Positions 32,458 through 40,402 of a DNA stretch of 64,000 bases are shown here, in pieces; the first letter of the stretch is position 1, and the number at the start of each line of letters is the position of its first letter. The notes beneath the pieces are model-generated. The model was not told the DNA's origin. It worked only from the letters and a program-made list of their open reading frames with translations, and did not search any database. Position numbers and translations under genes: made by a program. The stretch is taken from contig JAJZVO010000004.1 in assembly GCA_021845665.1 (NCBI GenBank), positions 62,001 through 126,000 on the forward strand, given 5' to 3'. This stretch comes from Bacteroidota bacterium. GTDB taxonomy: Bacteria; Bacteroidota; Ignavibacteria; Kryptoniales; JAKASW01.

Positions 32458-33009
32458 TCAGTTGTTGCTCAGCTTTGACAACAATTGCCCCGAGCAAGTC
32501 GAACAGAACCTGTCGGTCTTGACGTCGATTTCCTCGACTCCGGTGGATGAGTGCATGACACACAGGTAATTGCCGCAATGGAGCAGACCGAACGCATGAC
32601 CCAGCTCGTGCACCGATTCCTTAACGAGACGAAGATTCAGCAGATTCGCATCGGGGGCGAGTCCGTAGAATTCATCGCGGAGCCGGTGAGAGGAGACTAC
32701 CGCCACCTTTCCGTCGAGCTGAGCTTCGCCGAAAACATAGGTGAGCACAGGGACGAACAGATCACCTGAAGTCACGCCGAGAATCCTTCCGTCGAAGTCT
32801 TCGAATTTTTCAAGCAACGACGTGATGAGGGCCGTAGAGGAGTATTGGTTCCTGGACAGATTGAACGCGAAGGATCCGTCGAGCGGCAAGGCTCGGGTAA
32901 CCTCGACACGGCATCGAAAAGCGGAGGTAAGTGGCTTCACGAGAGGTGGAAGGGGCGTGCGGTCGACGGGATTGATCGCGACGATGAGGATCGAAGAGGT
33001 GCTCGCCAT
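32458..33009 (-). CDS. Archaemetzincin-family zinc protease
   Basis: 183 residues. The full archaemetzincin metal pattern is present: HELGH at 134-138, GLLHC at 141-145, then C150, M152, and a C-x2-C at 169-172, fitting HExxHxxGxxHC-x4-C-x-M-x16/17-C-x2-C. One catalytic zinc (three His) and one structural zinc (Cys) are expected. There is no signal peptide, so it should be cytosolic. Known relatives are small aminopeptidase-like enzymes of poorly defined substrate. It starts 18 nt after the sigma-54 regulator gene and is the distal gene of the redox/two-component cluster. Confidence 0.9.
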   Translation of the reverse strand: MASTSSILIVAINPVDRTPLPPLVKPLTSAFRCRVEVTRALPLDGSFAFNLSRNQYSSTALITSLLEKFEDFDGRILGVTSGDLFVPVLTYVFGEAQLDGKVAVVSSHRLRDEFYGLAPDANLLNLRLVKESVHELGHAFGLLHCGNYLCVMHSSTGVEEIDVKTDRFCSTCSGQLLSKLSNN

Positions 33010-33027: not shown

Positions 33028-34398
33028 TTAAGCCTGAGGCTTTTTCAATCCGTATTTCGAGATCTTGCTGTAGAGAGTTACGCGATCGATTCCAAGCGCC
33101 TCCGCACTGCGGGTGATGTTCCAGTTGTGCTTTGCCAGGACCTTCGCGATGTGGATCTTCTCCATGCTCGTGATAAGATCGTCCTGCTGCTCTACCGCCT
33201 CATGAGGTTGTGAAAGCTGGAAAGGAAGATCGCCGGTGTTAATGGCGGGCGGCTTAGCCAGTACCATGGCACGCTCGATTACGTTCTCCAGTTCGCGGAT
33301 ATTGCCAGGCCACCTGTTACGGATTAGAAGGTCCATCGCCTCAGGAGCTATCCCTACTGTCTGTTTGTTCATGAGGGTTGCATACTTCTGAACGAAATGA
33401 TCGACGAGCGGCGGGATATCAACGCGTCTTTCCCTTAAAGGAGGGATGAAGATAGTAAACACATTGAGCCTGTAATACAGGTCCTCACGAAAGCTGCCGT
33501 CGCCTATCGCCGCTTCGAGGTCGCGGTTGGTAGCACAAATCACGCGGAAATCGCTGGAGATCATCTCGTTGCCCCCGACCCGTGTAAACTGTTTAGTTTC
33601 CAGCACGCGGAGGAGCTGCACCTGCATCTTCTGGCTGATGGTGCCGATCTCATCGAGGAAGATCGTCCCGCCGTCGGCCATTTCAAACTTGCCCTTCCGC
33701 CTGAACTGCGCGCCGGTGAAGGCTCCTTTCTCATGCCCGAAGAGCTCGCTCTCAAGAAGGGTCTCAGGCACGGCTCCGCAATTTACCGTGATTATCGGGA
33801 AATATTTTCTGGCCGAGTTGGCGTGAATGGTCCTCGCGACAAGTTCCTTGCCGGTTCCGCTTTCACCTCTGATCATTACCGTTGTGTCGGTCTGTGCGAC
33901 TGTCTTCGCGAGGTCGATCACCTTCTGCATTTGTGAGCTCTCGCCGACGATTTCCTCGACGCCGGACAACTCAGACATCTGCTGGCGAAGCCGCCAGTTT
34001 TCATCGGTCAATTTTTTCGTTCTCAGCGCATTCTGGACAAGATGAGAGAGATGTTCCGGATCGACAGGTTTCGTGACGTAATCGAAAGCACCTTCCTTCA
34101 ATGCTTGGACGGCGCTGTCGACAGCCGCGAAAGCAGTAATCATGATCACGCAGGCACTCTTGTCGATTTCCATGATTCTTTTCTGAAGCTCCAGACCATC
34201 CATGCCCGGCATCTTGATGTCGAGCAGAATCACGTCCCAAGGTCCGTCGCTCATGAGCGTCAACGCCTTATTGGCGTTTTCGGCGGACCCCACCTTGAAG
34301 CCGTCCTCCCTGAACCACTTGCTCAGCGAATCGCGGACCGAAAGCTCGTCATCGACGATCAGGATGCTCGATTGAGAGATCTTCTCACTGTTTGCCAT
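33028..34398 (-). CDS. Sigma-54-dependent response regulator (NtrC type)
   Basis: 456 residues in three parts. There is a receiver domain ('ILIVDDE...DVILLDIKMPGMDG', phospho-acceptor D60). The central AAA+ domain has Walker A 'GESGTGKE' and the sigma-54-contact loop 'GAFTGA', plus 'GGTIFLDEIGTISQKMQVQLLRVLE'. The C-terminal Fis-type helix-turn-helix is 'NWNITRSAEALGIDRVTLYSKISKYGLKK'. All parts are intact, so it should activate RpoN-dependent promoters from upstream enhancer sites. It follows the heme-motif kinase gene by 9 nt, its probable partner. The palindromes at 40152-40265 are the candidate binding sites. Confidence 0.96.
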   Translation of the reverse strand: MANSEKISQSSILIVDDELSVRDSLSKWFREDGFKVGSAENANKALTLMSDGPWDVILLDIKMPGMDGLELQKRIMEIDKSACVIMITAFAAVDSAVQALKEGAFDYVTKPVDPEHLSHLVQNALRTKKLTDENWRLRQQMSELSGVEEIVGESSQMQKVIDLAKTVAQTDTTVMIRGESGTGKELVARTIHANSARKYFPIITVNCGAVPETLLESELFGHEKGAFTGAQFRRKGKFEMADGGTIFLDEIGTISQKMQVQLLRVLETKQFTRVGGNEMISSDFRVICATNRDLEAAIGDGSFREDLYYRLNVFTIFIPPLRERRVDIPPLVDHFVQKYATLMNKQTVGIAPEAMDLLIRNRWPGNIRELENVIERAMVLAKPPAINTGDLPFQLSQPHEAVEQQDDLITSMEKIHIAKVLAKHNWNITRSAEALGIDRVTLYSKISKYGLKKPQA

Positions 34399-34407
34399 AT
34401 TCGTTTC

Positions 34408-36036
34408 TCAATTCTTCTTAACATTCGCCAATATTGTTCCCCCGGCCTTTTGCGGGTTCACCGGCAGCAAAATAGTGACCGTTGTCCCGGCGCCAGGTCT
34501 GGAGTCCACTTCAATTCTCCCGTTATGCCGCTCGATGATCCCGTGGACGACGGCGAGTCCGAGACCTGTCCCTTTTCCGTCTTTCTTCGTCGTGAAGAAT
34601 GGCTCAAAAATGTGTTCGAGATCCTCGTCGTTTATCCCGATGCCGTTGTCGATCACTTTAATCTCGATCTCGTTTTGACTCACGAGTTTTTTCATCGTAA
34701 TTCTCAGCGTGCCACCGTCCGGCATCGCTTCAATGGCATTGATTTCGAGTGCTATCAACGCCTGCTCGATTTGCTGAGGGTCGCATATCGTTTCCACCGG
34801 AGTTTCCGGGACATCGACTTCCGGCATGACATTGTTCATGGCCAGATGATGCGAGATCAGCTTAAGACTTTGATGTATGACAGGGCCCAGATTCTGAAGC
34901 TGGAATTCACCTATCTTCTGCCTCGAGAAGAGGAGGAGGTTATTGACGATGTTGCCGCATCTCGTGCTCTCGTCGGCAATCATTGTCAACTCGTCGCCTA
35001 TGCCTTTAATGCCCTCCTCGGTCAGGTCTCCCTTCGCGAGCTGTTTCTTAAGCAACTTGGCGTACGCAAGGATGCCGGCAAGGGGATTGTTCAACTCGTG
35101 CGCGACGCTGGCCGCCAGTTTCCCCAAAGAAGCCATCTTCTCCATCTGTACCATGTTGGACAGAGCCCTGCGGAGTTCATCGGTCTTTTGTTCCACACGC
35201 TCTTCGAGGGTTTGAGTCCACTCGGTAAGCTCATCCCTCGCCCTGCCGAGTTCTTCGGTCATCTTGTTGAACGAATCGGCCAGATCGCCGATCTCATCAG
35301 ACGAACGCACTCTGATCCTGTGATCCAGGTTCCCTTTTGTTATCTCGCGAGTTCCTTCGGTCAGTTTCCTCACCGGGATATTGACCATCGTCCAGATGAA
35401 GATTCCAGCAAATATCGTGACACTCAGCACCATAAGCGCTCCGCCGAAATACGAATACTGTCTAAGCTGTACAAGGCTGGCATCCATAGCTTTGAGCGGC
35501 AGCATGACGTCGAGGACGCCGAGCACCGTCTGATTGGCCGGATGTTCATGGCACGCCGCCTTATAGCAGCTCGGTTCGTTTTTAATCGGAGTAATTACAC
35601 CTAACACGCGGTAGCCCTTCGGAGAATAGAAAATCCTTGTCAAGGCCGTATTTCCGTTTGTCGGCAGCGCCTTCCCGGGCTTGTGGCACGCATTGCATGC
35701 TTCGGCGTTCATATTGACATACTTGCCGACTTCGCTCGCCACGGTGGAATAAGTTATCTCGCCTTTTTTGTTGTAGATACGGATAGCCTGTATCCCGGGC
35801 TCTGATCCGAGCGTATTGATCGTCCGGTAAATGTCTTCCCTTCGGTTTTCGAGCATGCTGTAGTGTGTCGATCTTTTGATCAGATCGCTTGTACGGAGAG
35901 CCCAGTCGGTTGTAATGCTCAGATACTTTTCGGTATGCCAGTTCAACATGACGGCCGTGAAAATCGCCGTAGCAATGATCATGACAAGAAGCACGATCAC
36001 GAATAATCGAAATGCCAGGTATCTGGTTATGCGCAT
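34408..36036 (-). CDS. Membrane histidine kinase with two c-type heme motifs
   Basis: 542 residues. TM1 is at about 8-30, the periplasmic sensor at 31-195, TM2 at 196-218 ('YFGGALMVLSVTIFAGIFIWTMV'), then a HAMP domain ('PVRKLTEGTREITKGNLDHRI'), a HisKA domain with 'SLGKLAASVAHELNNPLAGI', and a HATPase with 'DNGIGI' and 'KGTGLGLAVVHGIIERHNG'. The sensor carries CNACH (114-118, CxxCH) and CYKAACH (157-163, Cx4CH), both recognised forms of covalent heme c attachment site. It probably reads the redox state or a gas ligand in the periplasm and phosphorylates the adjacent NtrC-type regulator. It lies in the same run as the HybAB/GcvH-like genes. Confidence 0.93.
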   Translation of the reverse strand: MRITRYLAFRLFVIVLLVMIIATAIFTAVMLNWHTEKYLSITTDWALRTSDLIKRSTHYSMLENRREDIYRTINTLGSEPGIQAIRIYNKKGEITYSTVASEVGKYVNMNAEACNACHKPGKALPTNGNTALTRIFYSPKGYRVLGVITPIKNEPSCYKAACHEHPANQTVLGVLDVMLPLKAMDASLVQLRQYSYFGGALMVLSVTIFAGIFIWTMVNIPVRKLTEGTREITKGNLDHRIRVRSSDEIGDLADSFNKMTEELGRARDELTEWTQTLEERVEQKTDELRRALSNMVQMEKMASLGKLAASVAHELNNPLAGILAYAKLLKKQLAKGDLTEEGIKGIGDELTMIADESTRCGNIVNNLLLFSRQKIGEFQLQNLGPVIHQSLKLISHHLAMNNVMPEVDVPETPVETICDPQQIEQALIALEINAIEAMPDGGTLRITMKKLVSQNEIEIKVIDNGIGINDEDLEHIFEPFFTTKKDGKGTGLGLAVVHGIIERHNGRIEVDSRPGAGTTVTILLPVNPQKAGGTILANVKKN

Positions 36037-36217: not shown

Positions 36218-37033
36218 CTACTTCCGGCCTGCGAAGAGGATTTCGAGGAAAGAGACATATCTTGAAGTTCCCAGAAGGTCCTTCAAATTGTGGGGACGGA
36301 TACCGCCATCCATCAATGTCACGCCGAGAGAAGGCAGCCGGGCATCGAATTCCATGATGAGCTGCTGTTTCAACCCCGTGAACTGTTCTTTGGAACTGGA
36401 CTCTATCGTTGATGCATCGACACTTGTTGCCGGGCTCTCATCGAAACAGGATATCTCACTGAACCAACCGGCTCCGTAAGGATCCCTTCTGACAATCACG
36501 ATAGATTCCATAACTTCCGGGTTCACACGCTTGATCTTTCCGTCCAGAGGCGATTTCACGGCGATGGTACCTTCTTCGCATGTCATCCAGGCGCATGGAT
36601 TATCTTTGAGTGTTGAGGTTCCGGACTTAGGCAGCACGATGGTTCCCACTCCCTCAAGGAGACCGGCGGCAAAATGGTCTATACCGATCTGGTAAGTGTT
36701 TAGCGCCGTCTTCTTCAACCATACGTGACCCTGCGTATACATCCTGTCTGAGGGAGGCTTGATAGACAAGGGGCCGCCGAAAACACCCCTGATGACATCG
36801 AGCATGGAGTCTTGTTTGACTCGCGATTTCGGACCGGTGACATCTGAGGCGGGCTTACCGGTGCGGGTAGCAGAGGCGGGGATCGATTTCTGCCGCATTA
36901 CCTGATCGAAGGGACAATCATCGCATTCAAAATTCCGGTCGCACAGTTTATACGAAACAAGGCCGGCATCGACCCAGATGCAATTAAGTTCGCCTTCCGG
37001 TATCACTTTGCTTATTGTCTTCTTTTCTTCCAT
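36218..37033 (-). CDS. Cytosolic GcvH-like protein with Cys cluster, no lipoyl lysine
   Basis: 271 residues. The N-terminal part has four cysteines in 'CIW...YKLCDRNFECDDCPFDQVM' (C18, C31, C37, C40), a likely metal or cluster site. From about 95 on it has the H-protein fold signature: 'YTQGHVWLKKTALNTYQIGIDHFAAGLLEGVGTIVLP', then 'TCEEGTIAVKSPLDGKIKRVNPEV' and 'RRDPYGAGWFSEI'. In true GcvH the lipoylated Lys lies in ESVKA, eight residues before the 'P' of 'APVSG'; here that position is Glu. The tail contains GVTLMDGG, shared with the GcvH-like gene upstream in this cluster. I infer a structural or electron-transfer role in the HybAB-type complex rather than glycine cleavage. Confidence 0.8.
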   Translation of the reverse strand: MEEKKTISKVIPEGELNCIWVDAGLVSYKLCDRNFECDDCPFDQVMRQKSIPASATRTGKPASDVTGPKSRVKQDSMLDVIRGVFGGPLSIKPPSDRMYTQGHVWLKKTALNTYQIGIDHFAAGLLEGVGTIVLPKSGTSTLKDNPCAWMTCEEGTIAVKSPLDGKIKRVNPEVMESIVIVRRDPYGAGWFSEISCFDESPATSVDASTIESSSKEQFTGLKQQLIMEFDARLPSLGVTLMDGGIRPHNLKDLLGTSRYVSFLEILFAGRK

Positions 37034-37058: not shown

Positions 37059-38300
37059 CTATTTTGCCTGCATGCCGAAGGACGGCTCGCCTCTTAGCGG
37101 GGCATCGTCTTCAATGACCACGACTTCGAAGCTTTCGCCCCGGGCAGGCTCGTTCGCCGCCACACTCTCGGGAAAGACTGCAAGGTTTTTCGCGGCCCAG
37201 GCAAAAGCCCCGAAGCCGAAAGCGACTATCATAAGAGTTACCGAGATTTCCATCCAGCTTGGGAAGTAGGCTACGCCGTAATGTCTTTCCAGCGAAGTCA
37301 CGCTGACGTTCATCCTGTTAAGAACGAATCCCATCACTGCAAAGAGAGCAGCATAGTACAAACCGCGTTTGTTGTTCCTGATCCTGGGGATCACAAGCAT
37401 CGTAATCGGGATGACGACTCCGATCATGATCTCTGCCCAGAAGAGTATCCCTTCCGTATTGAAGGTAAAGAGATAAGAGAAGAGGTGATAGTTTATCATA
37501 TCTTCGATCCTAAGGACGAGATACACTGCGAGTGCCACTGCCGTGACCTTACCAAGCTTCGACAATATCGGCATTTCAATTTCCCGGTGGAATGCGCGCG
37601 AGCTGAGAAACGATTCCATTATTACCATGGCCGGTCCGACAGCCACCGCCGAGATGAAGAAAAGGAACGGGAGGTTTCCGGTATACCATAAAGGGTAGAC
37701 TTTCTCCGGCATGACGAGGTACAACGACCCGAGGGACGACTGGTGAAGAGAGGAGAGCATGACGCCGAGAATCACGAGTGGAACGATCATCTTGTGAACC
37801 ACTTCAGCGGCTTTATGAAGATGGAACCGCTCAAAGACCATGGGGCTGAATTCAAAAGCAAGGACCGTTGTGTAGAGCATGACACACCACGCGAGCTCGA
37901 ACATGGGGGAATGTGGATTCCACATGACGAGCGGGTGCCAGATGTTCCACGGCCTTCCGAGATCGAACATAAGTGCGAACACAACAAGCACGTAGCCGAG
38001 GAACGCTGTCAATACTGCAGGCCTGACGATCGGCTTGTAATAGTCCAGATGGAAGACATACACGGCGCCGGCCACAACGAACCCACCGGCGGCCAGACCG
38101 ACACCGCAAAGGACGTCGAATCCGATCCATATTCCCCATGGGAACTTGTCGCTCAAGTTAGTTGCTGCCCCCAGGCCATAGACGAAGCGGACGTAAGTGG
38201 AATACAAACCGGCCACGACAAGCACAAGGAGCACAGACTTCCAAAAAGTCATATGCCTGAACCAATACACTATTTTCGATAGAACTCCGTTATTCAGCAT
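37059..38300 (-). CDS. NrfD/HybB-type integral membrane quinone-interacting subunit
   Basis: 413 residues with about ten membrane helices. 'VYGLGAATNLSDKFPWGIWIGFDVLCGVGLAAGGFVVAGAVYVF' and 'FALMFDLGRPWNIWHPLVMWNPHSPMFELAWCVMLY' are hallmarks of the HybB/NrfD family, which passes electrons between a ferredoxin subunit and the quinone pool. The track start is 17 codons early; the ATG at 38300 follows GGAGGA by 4 nt and overlaps the ferredoxin gene end by 11 nt. No catalytic molybdopterin or hydrogenase large subunit is encoded nearby, so the electron donor or acceptor is unknown. Confidence 0.93.
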   Translation of the reverse strand: MLNNGVLSKIVYWFRHMTFWKSVLLVLVVAGLYSTYVRFVYGLGAATNLSDKFPWGIWIGFDVLCGVGLAAGGFVVAGAVYVFHLDYYKPIVRPAVLTAFLGYVLVVFALMFDLGRPWNIWHPLVMWNPHSPMFELAWCVMLYTTVLAFEFSPMVFERFHLHKAAEVVHKMIVPLVILGVMLSSLHQSSLGSLYLVMPEKVYPLWYTGNLPFLFFISAVAVGPAMVIMESFLSSRAFHREIEMPILSKLGKVTAVALAVYLVLRIEDMINYHLFSYLFTFNTEGILFWAEIMIGVVIPITMLVIPRIRNNKRGLYYAALFAVMGFVLNRMNVSVTSLERHYGVAYFPSWMEISVTLMIVAFGFGAFAWAAKNLAVFPESVAANEPARGESFEVVVIEDDAPLRGEPSFGMQAK

Positions 38301-39096
38301 CGTTTCCTCCACTCGTCTGCTCTTTGATTTCCAGTTCGGCGGGTTCTGCATTCCCGCGCTTCAATTGTTCTTCGTACTCTGCTACTTTCTTCTTCCGGTT
38401 GGTAAGCCACCAGAAGCCCGCCATCAAAGTACTCCCCCAGACGAAATAGTCCGGGATCTTCTCCATAATGTCCCAGGTATACTTGGGCAGCGCCCTCTTC
38501 GGCAGGTTTGTTGGAAAACCGAGTTTACCGAAGTCCTCGCCGGCCAGATAGATAGTTGAAGTGCCGCCGACTTCAGTAGTCCCGAATATATGCTGGATAT
38601 ACGTCCCGGGGTTGTTCTTAATTCGTTTCTTTGCTTCTTCGATCAGATCATCGCGGAATCCGAATATTCTGGCCTGTGCCGGACACACCTCGACGCAGGC
38701 GGGCTGTTTTCCCTTCAGCTGGCGCGGGTAGCACATGTCGCACTTCGTGACTTTCGGAGCAGGCTTATTCCATTGGTACTTCGGTATCTGGAACGGGCAG
38801 GCCTGCACGCAGTATCGGCATCCCATGCATTTGTCTACATCGTAAACGACGGGCCCGGCGGCGGTCTTGTGAATTGCTCCAACCGGGCAGACCGATGCGC
38901 AAGTGGGATCCTCGCAGTGCATGCAGAGCCGTGCGACATAAGTCTGTCCGTATTGCTGAACGACGGTATTCTTTTCACACGACAGCTCGTGCACATCCGT
39001 ATGAGGGAACCCCCATCTATCGGCGCACGCATCCTCACAGGCCATGCATCCGATACACTGCGTCGTGTCTACTAAAATTCCTACCTGCTTTTTCAT
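38290..39096 (-). CDS. Four-cluster ferredoxin subunit (HybA/DmsB-like)
   Basis: 268 residues. The cysteine runs 'CIGCMACEDAC', 'CMHCEDPTCASVCPVG', 'CMGCRYCVQACPF' and 'CDMC...CVEVCP' give ligands for four 4Fe-4S clusters. A C-terminal membrane helix ('YFVWGSTLMAGFWWL') anchors it, as in HybA, followed by a charged tail. There is no twin-arginine signal, so the clusters probably face the cytosol, unlike HybA. It should hand electrons to the overlapping NrfD/HybB subunit. Confidence 0.93.
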   Translation of the reverse strand: MKKQVGILVDTTQCIGCMACEDACADRWGFPHTDVHELSCEKNTVVQQYGQTYVARLCMHCEDPTCASVCPVGAIHKTAAGPVVYDVDKCMGCRYCVQACPFQIPKYQWNKPAPKVTKCDMCYPRQLKGKQPACVEVCPAQARIFGFRDDLIEEAKKRIKNNPGTYIQHIFGTTEVGGTSTIYLAGEDFGKLGFPTNLPKRALPKYTWDIMEKIPDYFVWGSTLMAGFWWLTNRKKKVAEYEEQLKRGNAEPAELEIKEQTSGGNDAE

Positions 39097-39122: not shown

Positions 39123-39839
39123 CTACGAATTAGCTGATTTCTTCCCGTTTCCTGCGGTCAGGAAATCCGTCTCGAACCTTTGCCAGATTTCCTGCGGAGA
39201 GTGTTCCATGACGTCGTTAACCGGCGCGCCTCCATCCATTAGAGTAACACCTGCAGGCAACGCGGAGCCGGATGCTGCGGGCACTTCCGTCTGGGCGGTA
39301 ATGAAATTTCTGAATCTCTTGATCTCTTCCCTGAGCCACAATGCTGCCTCATTACCGATGGACAGCTGCTTAATATCGGCCGCCAGATTTGTCGGCTCGA
39401 TCAACAGGACCCAACCTTCTTTGTAAGGCTCTTTCCTCACGACACCTGGCGAGTGTACCAGATCGTCGTTGATACCGACAACTTTACCAGAGATGGGGGC
39501 ACGAAACGACACTTCTTTTCCTCCCTGACGAAGAGTAAAGAGTCTATCTCCCTTTTGAACGACGGTGTTCGCAGGAAGGAGCTCGACCGCGCTGACGGGG
39601 CCGATAATCTTCTGGACGAAATCGTCGACGCCGACGCGCGTCAGCCCATCCGGAAGGAGCTCGACCCATGTGTGTCCCTTTCCGAAAAAGTATCCTTTGG
39701 GGATTACGAACCTCGGCTTTGCAGAAACGTGGGCGGCAGGAGCAAGTGCTGCCTTACGTTTCGCAGCCCGTTGCACGAAATAATCGATGACCAAAAAGAC
39801 GATTATCGTCGCGACTACGAATAACGCAACCATTTTCAA
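39123..39839 (-). CDS. Membrane-anchored GcvH-like protein, first gene of the redox cluster
   Basis: 238 residues. An N-terminal membrane helix ('VALFVVATIIVFLVIDYFV') precedes an H-protein-like domain: 'FFGKGHTWVELLPDGLTRVGVDDFVQKIIGPVSAVELLP', 'RQGGKEVSFRAPISGKVVGIND' and 'RKEPYKEGWVLLIEPTNL'. The ESVKA lipoyl site is absent; a Lys lies one position off in 'RQGGKEV', so lipoylation is doubtful. 'GVTLMDGG' near the C-terminus is repeated in the second GcvH-like protein of the cluster. It starts right after an AGGAGG site and leads the operon. Confidence 0.82.
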   Translation of the reverse strand: MKMVALFVVATIIVFLVIDYFVQRAAKRKAALAPAAHVSAKPRFVIPKGYFFGKGHTWVELLPDGLTRVGVDDFVQKIIGPVSAVELLPANTVVQKGDRLFTLRQGGKEVSFRAPISGKVVGINDDLVHSPGVVRKEPYKEGWVLLIEPTNLAADIKQLSIGNEAALWLREEIKRFRNFITAQTEVPAASGSALPAGVTLMDGGAPVNDVMEHSPQEIWQRFETDFLTAGNGKKSANS

Positions 39840-39945: not shown

Positions 39946-40151
39946 ATCCGGTACTGCAGTTTTTAAATGAATTCCATTCTCTCTTCATTTCATTCGCCTT
40001 TTTCTTAATCACTATAGGTACTATTTCAAATGCTGTTCCGAAAATGCGCAAACCGAGGAAAGGAATCGAAAGAGTAACTACCGGTTAATCAGTGGGTTGC
40101 CGTGACGGGAAAATCGACACAATGCAAATCGTATGTCCGCAACGAACGCCA

Positions 40152-40166
40152 GTTGAATTGCTCAAC
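40152..40166. promoter_or_regulatory. Palindromic enhancer-like site 1
   Basis: GTTGA-ATTGC-TCAAC, a perfect 5-bp inverted repeat with a 5-nt centre, flanked by GCCA and ACCG. Confidence 0.65.
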
Positions 40167-40184
40167 ACCGCATACGGAGGAAAT

Positions 40185-40199
40185 GTTGAGAATCCGCTT
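40185..40199. promoter_or_regulatory. Half-site of the same palindrome
   Basis: GTTGA is intact but the second arm is lost (GTTGA-GAATC-CGCTT). The centre is 33 bp from site 1. Confidence 0.4.
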
Positions 40200-40228
40200 A
40201 AGCTCATCGGAATTGCATAAAGCGCCAG

Positions 40229-40243
40229 ATTGAAATACTCAAC
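40229..40243. promoter_or_regulatory. Palindromic enhancer-like site 2
   Basis: ATTGA-AATAC-TCAAC, one mismatch, again followed by ACCG as in site 1. The centre is 44 bp from the half-site and 77 bp from site 1. Confidence 0.6.
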
Positions 40244-40250
40244 ACCGTCC

Positions 40251-40265
40251 GTTTAACATCTCAAC
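40251..40265. promoter_or_regulatory. Palindromic enhancer-like site 3
   Basis: GTTTA-ACATC-TCAAC, one mismatch, with its centre 22 bp from site 2. Together the set lies 313-426 bp upstream of the redox cluster start and downstream of the deoC terminator. The rest of 39840-40402 holds no supportable gene. Confidence 0.6.
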
Positions 40266-40342: not shown

Positions 40343-40386
40343 AAAACCCGCCGGTGTATGTCTTGAATCCCAACACACGGCGGGTC
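40343..40386 (-). terminator. Terminator after deoC
   Basis: Minus strand ACCCGCCGTGTGT pairs imperfectly with ACACCGGCGGGT and is followed by TTTTCC, 17 nt after the deoC stop. It separates deoC from the redox cluster control region. Confidence 0.8.
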
Positions 40387-40402
40387 TTGTATAATGACCC
40401 CG

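Follow-up and report, generated by a model that had tools for sequence, protein, structure and literature searches.

A phased palindrome array upstream of a GcvH/Fe-S/NrfD operon, predicted to be a conserved sigma-54 enhancer

A cluster of palindromic sites upstream of an operon for GcvH-like, Fe-S and NrfD proteins, a sensor kinase and a response regulator very probably serves as the enhancer of a sigma-54 promoter, bound by the operon's own phosphorylated regulator. The sites stand in a fixed geometry upstream of a sigma-54 type promoter element, are conserved in orthologous operons and are linked to the regulator gene. They lie in a window (the whole stretch of DNA that was analysed) of 64,000 nucleotides, in which the operon occupies positions 39833-33028 of the minus strand. 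The features of the region are the following:

40343..40388, no strand: inverted repeat, probable deoC terminator hairpin, the far edge of the regulatory region
40251..40265, minus: site A, GTTGAGATGTTAAAC on the operon strand, 1 mismatch; same place in orthologs
40229..40243, minus: site B, GTTGAGTATTTCAAT, 1 mismatch; 22 bp from A
40184..40190, minus: half-site CTCAACA, at B+44
40152..40166, minus: site C, GTTGAGCAATTCAAC, exact palindrome; 77 bp from B
40026..40039, minus: sigma-54 type promoter GGAAC-N5-TTGA, with -24 at 40039-40035 and -12 at 40029-40026; conserved block of the genus
39123..39833, minus: gene 1, membrane-anchored GcvH-like protein (Pfam GCV_H 8.7e-20; ATG with AGGAGG)
38290..39096, minus: 4Fe-4S protein, HmcB/HybA-like by family matches
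37059..38351, minus: NrfD-family membrane protein, HmcC/HybB-like by family matches
36218..37033, minus: second GcvH-like protein with an N-terminal Cys motif
34408..36036, minus: sensor histidine kinase (HAMP, HisKA) with CxxCH and CxxxxCH haem-type motifs
33028..34398, minus: sigma-54-dependent response regulator with receiver, GAFTGA ATPase and Fis HTH; proposed to bind the array

A sequence-only reading of the window had described three full copies of GTTGA-N5-TCAAC and one half-site. The half-site, TGTTGAG at 40184-40190, in which the second arm is missing, was found as described, whereas the array holds a single exact copy (40152-40166, centre 40159); the other two sites, ATTGA-AATAC-TCAAC at 40229-40243 (centre 40236) and GTTTA-ACATC-TCAAC at 40251-40265 (centre 40258), carry one mismatch each. 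The four centres, with that of the half-site projected to 40192, and the spacings of 33, 44 and 22 bp were given correctly. As had also been stated, the sites lie beyond the deoC terminator, the hairpin at 40343-40388 separating the array from deoC, and upstream of the first gene. The start of this gene is better placed at the ATG at 39833-39831, behind AGGAGG at 39845-39840, and the distance given as 313-426 bp is corrected to ~319-432 bp from this ATG.

The exact motif GTTGA-N5-TCAAC occurs 7 times in the whole 4.6 Mb genome, and the paired form at ≤3 mismatches has a single occurrence in it, which is this array. A motif common throughout the genome outside regulatory regions had been named as evidence against an enhancer; the motif was not found clustered elsewhere in the genome. 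The other exact copies were considered as a possible regulon, but none is clustered and those in C75, C116 and C118 are located inside long ORFs, so that no further target was found.

To assess conservation, 61 genomes of the class were searched with the regulator, and the operons that hold its orthologs were compared. The gene order GcvH-like / Fe-S / NrfD / GcvH-like / di-haem-motif kinase / sigma-54 response regulator was found in many relatives, and the initially described pattern, untuned, recurs before the first gene of the orthologous operons at the same relative positions. In a whole-genome scan of the 61 relatives, two palindromes 22 bp apart with ≤3 mismatches were detected mainly before this operon, and all pair matches with ≤2 mismatches were in front of it. 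A scan of named genomes with an NrfD alignment yielded 80 loci, which belong to Bacteroidota/Kryptoniota, Ignavibacteria, Acidobacteriota, Calditrichota, KSB1, Abyssobacteria, Planctomycetota and others (taxa as labelled in the records). In the 69 of them that were new to the comparison (809 kb) the 21-23 bp pair occurred 31 times, compared to 0 for a reversed-pattern control, and in 24 of these loci it was situated ≤700 bp from the operon start; an Abyssobacteria locus contains two perfect palindromes with a spacing of exactly 22 bp.

When 93 upstream regions were pooled, 27 exact sites (reversed control: 0) and 114 sites with ≤1 mismatch (reversed control: 1) were counted, confirming that the motif is conserved with fixed spacing upstream of orthologous operons. 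The refined motif reads YGTTGAR-WWW-YTCAACR. A flank ACCG, which two of the sites were said to share, is not kept in relatives, where the conserved extension amounts to one base per side (Y...R). The pattern-based counts are independent of the PWM; counts made with the PWM are partly circular because it was derived from these same upstream regions. Of 37 distant loci in which a GcvH-like gene occurs together with a kinase or regulator, 11 were without a 21-23 bp pair, perhaps owing to a misplaced operon start or a diverged motif. As judged from the sequences compared, the layout goes with the regulator in Kryptoniota, Ignavibacteria, Acidobacteriota, Calditrichota, KSB1 and Abyssobacteria alike.

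These data bear on the idea that the palindromes arose by chance or reflect base composition or RNA structure, which is hardly credible. Single motif copies do exist elsewhere, and 2-mismatch patterns are mildly enriched in the window (41 vs 28.8). However, none of 500 Markov random windows with the same dinucleotide composition contained three sites (≤1 mismatch) inside 115 bp, two of them containing two sites, and the comparative data refute a chance origin, as spacing and sequence are kept across phyla while the reversed control is near zero.

The spacing of the best pair, corresponding to sites A and B, is 22 bp in 50 and 21-23 bp in 65 of the 93 regions. The distance between B and C is 66-67 bp in 12 and 74-81 bp in 39 of 54 regions, with three outliers (52, 100 and 104 bp) and none at 68-73 bp; these counts take in related genomes and do not represent independent events. 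The two modes have means about one helical turn apart, and the 66-67 bp form is present in both Kryptoniota-like families and Acidobacteriota (L106, L107, L110). The half-site at exactly B+44 was detected in half of the genus members (6 of 12), the background being 0.4%. By themselves the B-C distances single out no period, and pooled site distances were needed, which gave a period of 11.1 bp. This matches the ~11 bp per turn that have been described as the in vivo helical repeat in bacterial looping (PMC8501960). The spacings behind the initial proposal that all sites face the same side of the helix, in multiples of 11 bp, are correct; the helical period is nearer 11.1 bp. The comparative record amounts to a natural spacing experiment, and its spacing pattern together with 11.1 bp per turn is what face-of-helix dependence in negatively supercoiled DNA would predict.

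The promoter element, which the sequence-only reading had overlooked, is present downstream of the array here and in most relatives. In the genus it deviates from the consensus at -12 (TTGA instead of TTGC), and in distant relatives the block reads as the classic TGGCA-N6-TTGCA type. A sigma-54 element scoring ≥13 was found 50-150 bp past C in 37 of 54 arrays and in 1 of 54 complemented controls, the distance from C to the element being 67-141 bp. Transcription is predicted to start near 40014, which sets the centres of C, the half-site, B and A at ~-145, ~-178, ~-222 and ~-244, respectively, and thus within the normal enhancer range (PMC7408454, PMC4641369). Another sigma-54-like match, GGACATACGATTTGCA on the minus strand (~40138-40123), has a slightly higher consensus score but is unconserved, and the conserved GGAAC-N5-TTGA was therefore preferred.

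As in other sigma-54 enhancers, tandem inverted repeats are located at least ~70 bp upstream of a -24/-12 promoter, a sigma-54 factor is present in the genome, which encodes one RpoN (PF04552, E = 4.6e-53, at C62), and the linked activator has an AAA+ domain, a GAFTGA loop and an HTH. Conserved spacing, sigma-54 promoter, linked regulator and RpoN all support the earlier suggestion of NtrC-type enhancer sites, as far as sequence can indicate. Several phased palindromes would suit repressors too, and in one family of relatives (f3) extra sites lie just past the promoter, where repression is possible. Yet it is very improbable that the palindromes act as repressor operators or as a multi-dimer silencer and not as an enhancer, given that the distance of the main array from the sigma-54 promoter is the usual one for enhancers (UAS definition, PMC4641369) and that no conserved repressor gene is linked to it.

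The protein most likely to occupy such an enhancer is encoded in the cluster itself, which, as had been recognized, contains an NtrC-type regulator. This protein combines a receiver, a GAFTGA-bearing sigma-54 ATPase domain and a Fis-type HTH. In the orthologs of this regulator the GAFTGA loop, the phospho-Asp and the recognition helix IDRVTLY are conserved. Departures from the loop sequence were observed in family f2 (L049, L051, L053, L055, L056), where GAFTGA is replaced by GAFTDA though the f2 enhancers are well kept, and in the L067 regulator, which has DAFPGA in its place. All 32 orthologous kinases compared contain CxxCH plus a second haem-type motif 43-47 residues on, which is CxxxxCH in 31 of them and CxxCH in L057. 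The presence of two haem c-type motifs in the periplasmic part suggests that the kinase is a redox or haem-ligand sensor.

The array was absent from module copies with other regulators (L108, L111, L132, L159) and from the second copy in G008 (L173, G008:C4), where kinase and regulator are both lacking. The kinase and regulator genes of G040 are separated from the module by ~78 kb of one contig; there the array accompanies the module, and no array was found in the 20 kb around the regulator. This separation agrees with a regulator acting in trans and an enhancer acting in cis. The array might also be a sigma-54 enhancer of the operon bound by a different NtrC-type regulator of the cell, since many sigma-54 activators are encoded in the genome (27 scored matches, 99 candidates) and family f3 has a second, divergent activator gene adjoining the operon. 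This is unlikely, as across phyla the array goes with the orthologous kinase and regulator and is missing where other regulators accompany the module, and as a divergent activator neighbour is not general, the neighbour in the genus being deoC. We infer that the co-encoded regulator is the protein that binds the palindromes.

With this regulator as the binder, the palindromes would act as the upstream activating sequence of the sigma-54 promoter driving the GcvH/Fe-S/NrfD/kinase/regulator operon. The kinase, which probably senses the periplasmic redox state or a ligand via two c-type haems, would phosphorylate the co-encoded response regulator. Dimers of the regulator are predicted to occupy A, B and C on one DNA face, A and B side by side at 22 bp and C seven (or six) turns beyond. 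The assembled ATPase ring could then reach the sigma-54 polymerase at -24/-12 by looping and open the promoter. Because kinase and regulator belong to the same operon, the circuit would be positively autoregulated.

The site motif of NtrC differs from GTTGA-N5-TCAAC, and the regulator stays under the NCBIfam cut-off for NtrC (421.3 vs 558.6). In the NtrC enhancer of E. coli glnA, tandem palindromes ~90-140 bp upstream of the sigma-54 start are bound by dimers of the phosphorylated response regulator, which act through a DNA loop (PMC7408454). The array shares with it the tandem palindromic sites upstream of a sigma-54 start, binding being predicted here, but has three sites with spacings of 22 and 67/77 bp at ~-145 to ~-244 before an electron-transfer operon. 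It also resembles the enhancer-binding-protein motifs of Desulfovibrio vulgaris, which according to the text of PMC4641369 are conserved palindromes upstream of sigma-54 promoters, several of them of autoregulated operons, established by comparative genomics; neither GTTGA nor TCAAC occurs in that text, the motif logos of the paper being figures.

At the family level, the regulator and the catalytic part of the kinase match AtoSC and ZraSR best, and the regulator has the same domain order. The scores are nevertheless far under the curated cut-offs (AtoC 499.9 vs 714, ZraR 421.8 vs 760), and the kinase here differs in its two periplasmic haem-type motifs. Likewise, the Fe-S protein best matches HmcB/HybA and the NrfD protein HmcC/HybB, but equivalog cut-offs are not reached (HmcB 232 vs 420, HmcC 332 vs 550, HybA 205.6 vs 263), and in place of a multihaem HmcA or a hydrogenase gene, neither of which was seen in the operon, there are two GcvH-like proteins.

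In the literature searched, no description of the GTTGA-N5-TCAAC motif or of the operon was found. The array is most likely an enhancer of a known kind that is unusual in the depth of its conservation and its rigid phasing. We consider it somewhat probable that the di-haem kinase, the sigma-54 regulator and the ~11 bp-phased three-site enhancer are inherited as a unit with the GcvH/Fe-S/NrfD module in at least five phyla. If so, the layout would be among the most deeply conserved of sigma-54 enhancers, with a third site that mostly shifts only by a whole helical turn. The array itself offers a binding code, precise enough to be tested, for a redox two-component system that is widespread but undescribed in that literature, and thereby an approach to what its operon does.

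Several variations were observed among the loci. In family f3 (L060, L062, L063, L064, L066) a second pair of sites, 23-24 bp apart, is situated just past the sigma-54 promoter at ~-60 and ~-38 from the first gene, where feedback repression is possible; in four of these five loci the divergent activator gene (~32-36% identical) adjoins the operon. L120 (a Deltaproteobacteria record) contains two pairs with 21 bp spacing, at 353 and 2295, near other GcvH-like genes and away from the NrfD gene, which are perhaps additional targets. The second Fe-S/NrfD module of G008 (L173) retains the second GcvH-like gene only as a fragment, and the first is missing. The Cys motif of the second GcvH-like protein, C-IW...KLCDR...CxxCPFD, is present in most relatives and missing in family f2. 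In the window, a peptidase M54 (archaemetzincin-like) gene at 32458-33009 immediately follows the regulator gene.
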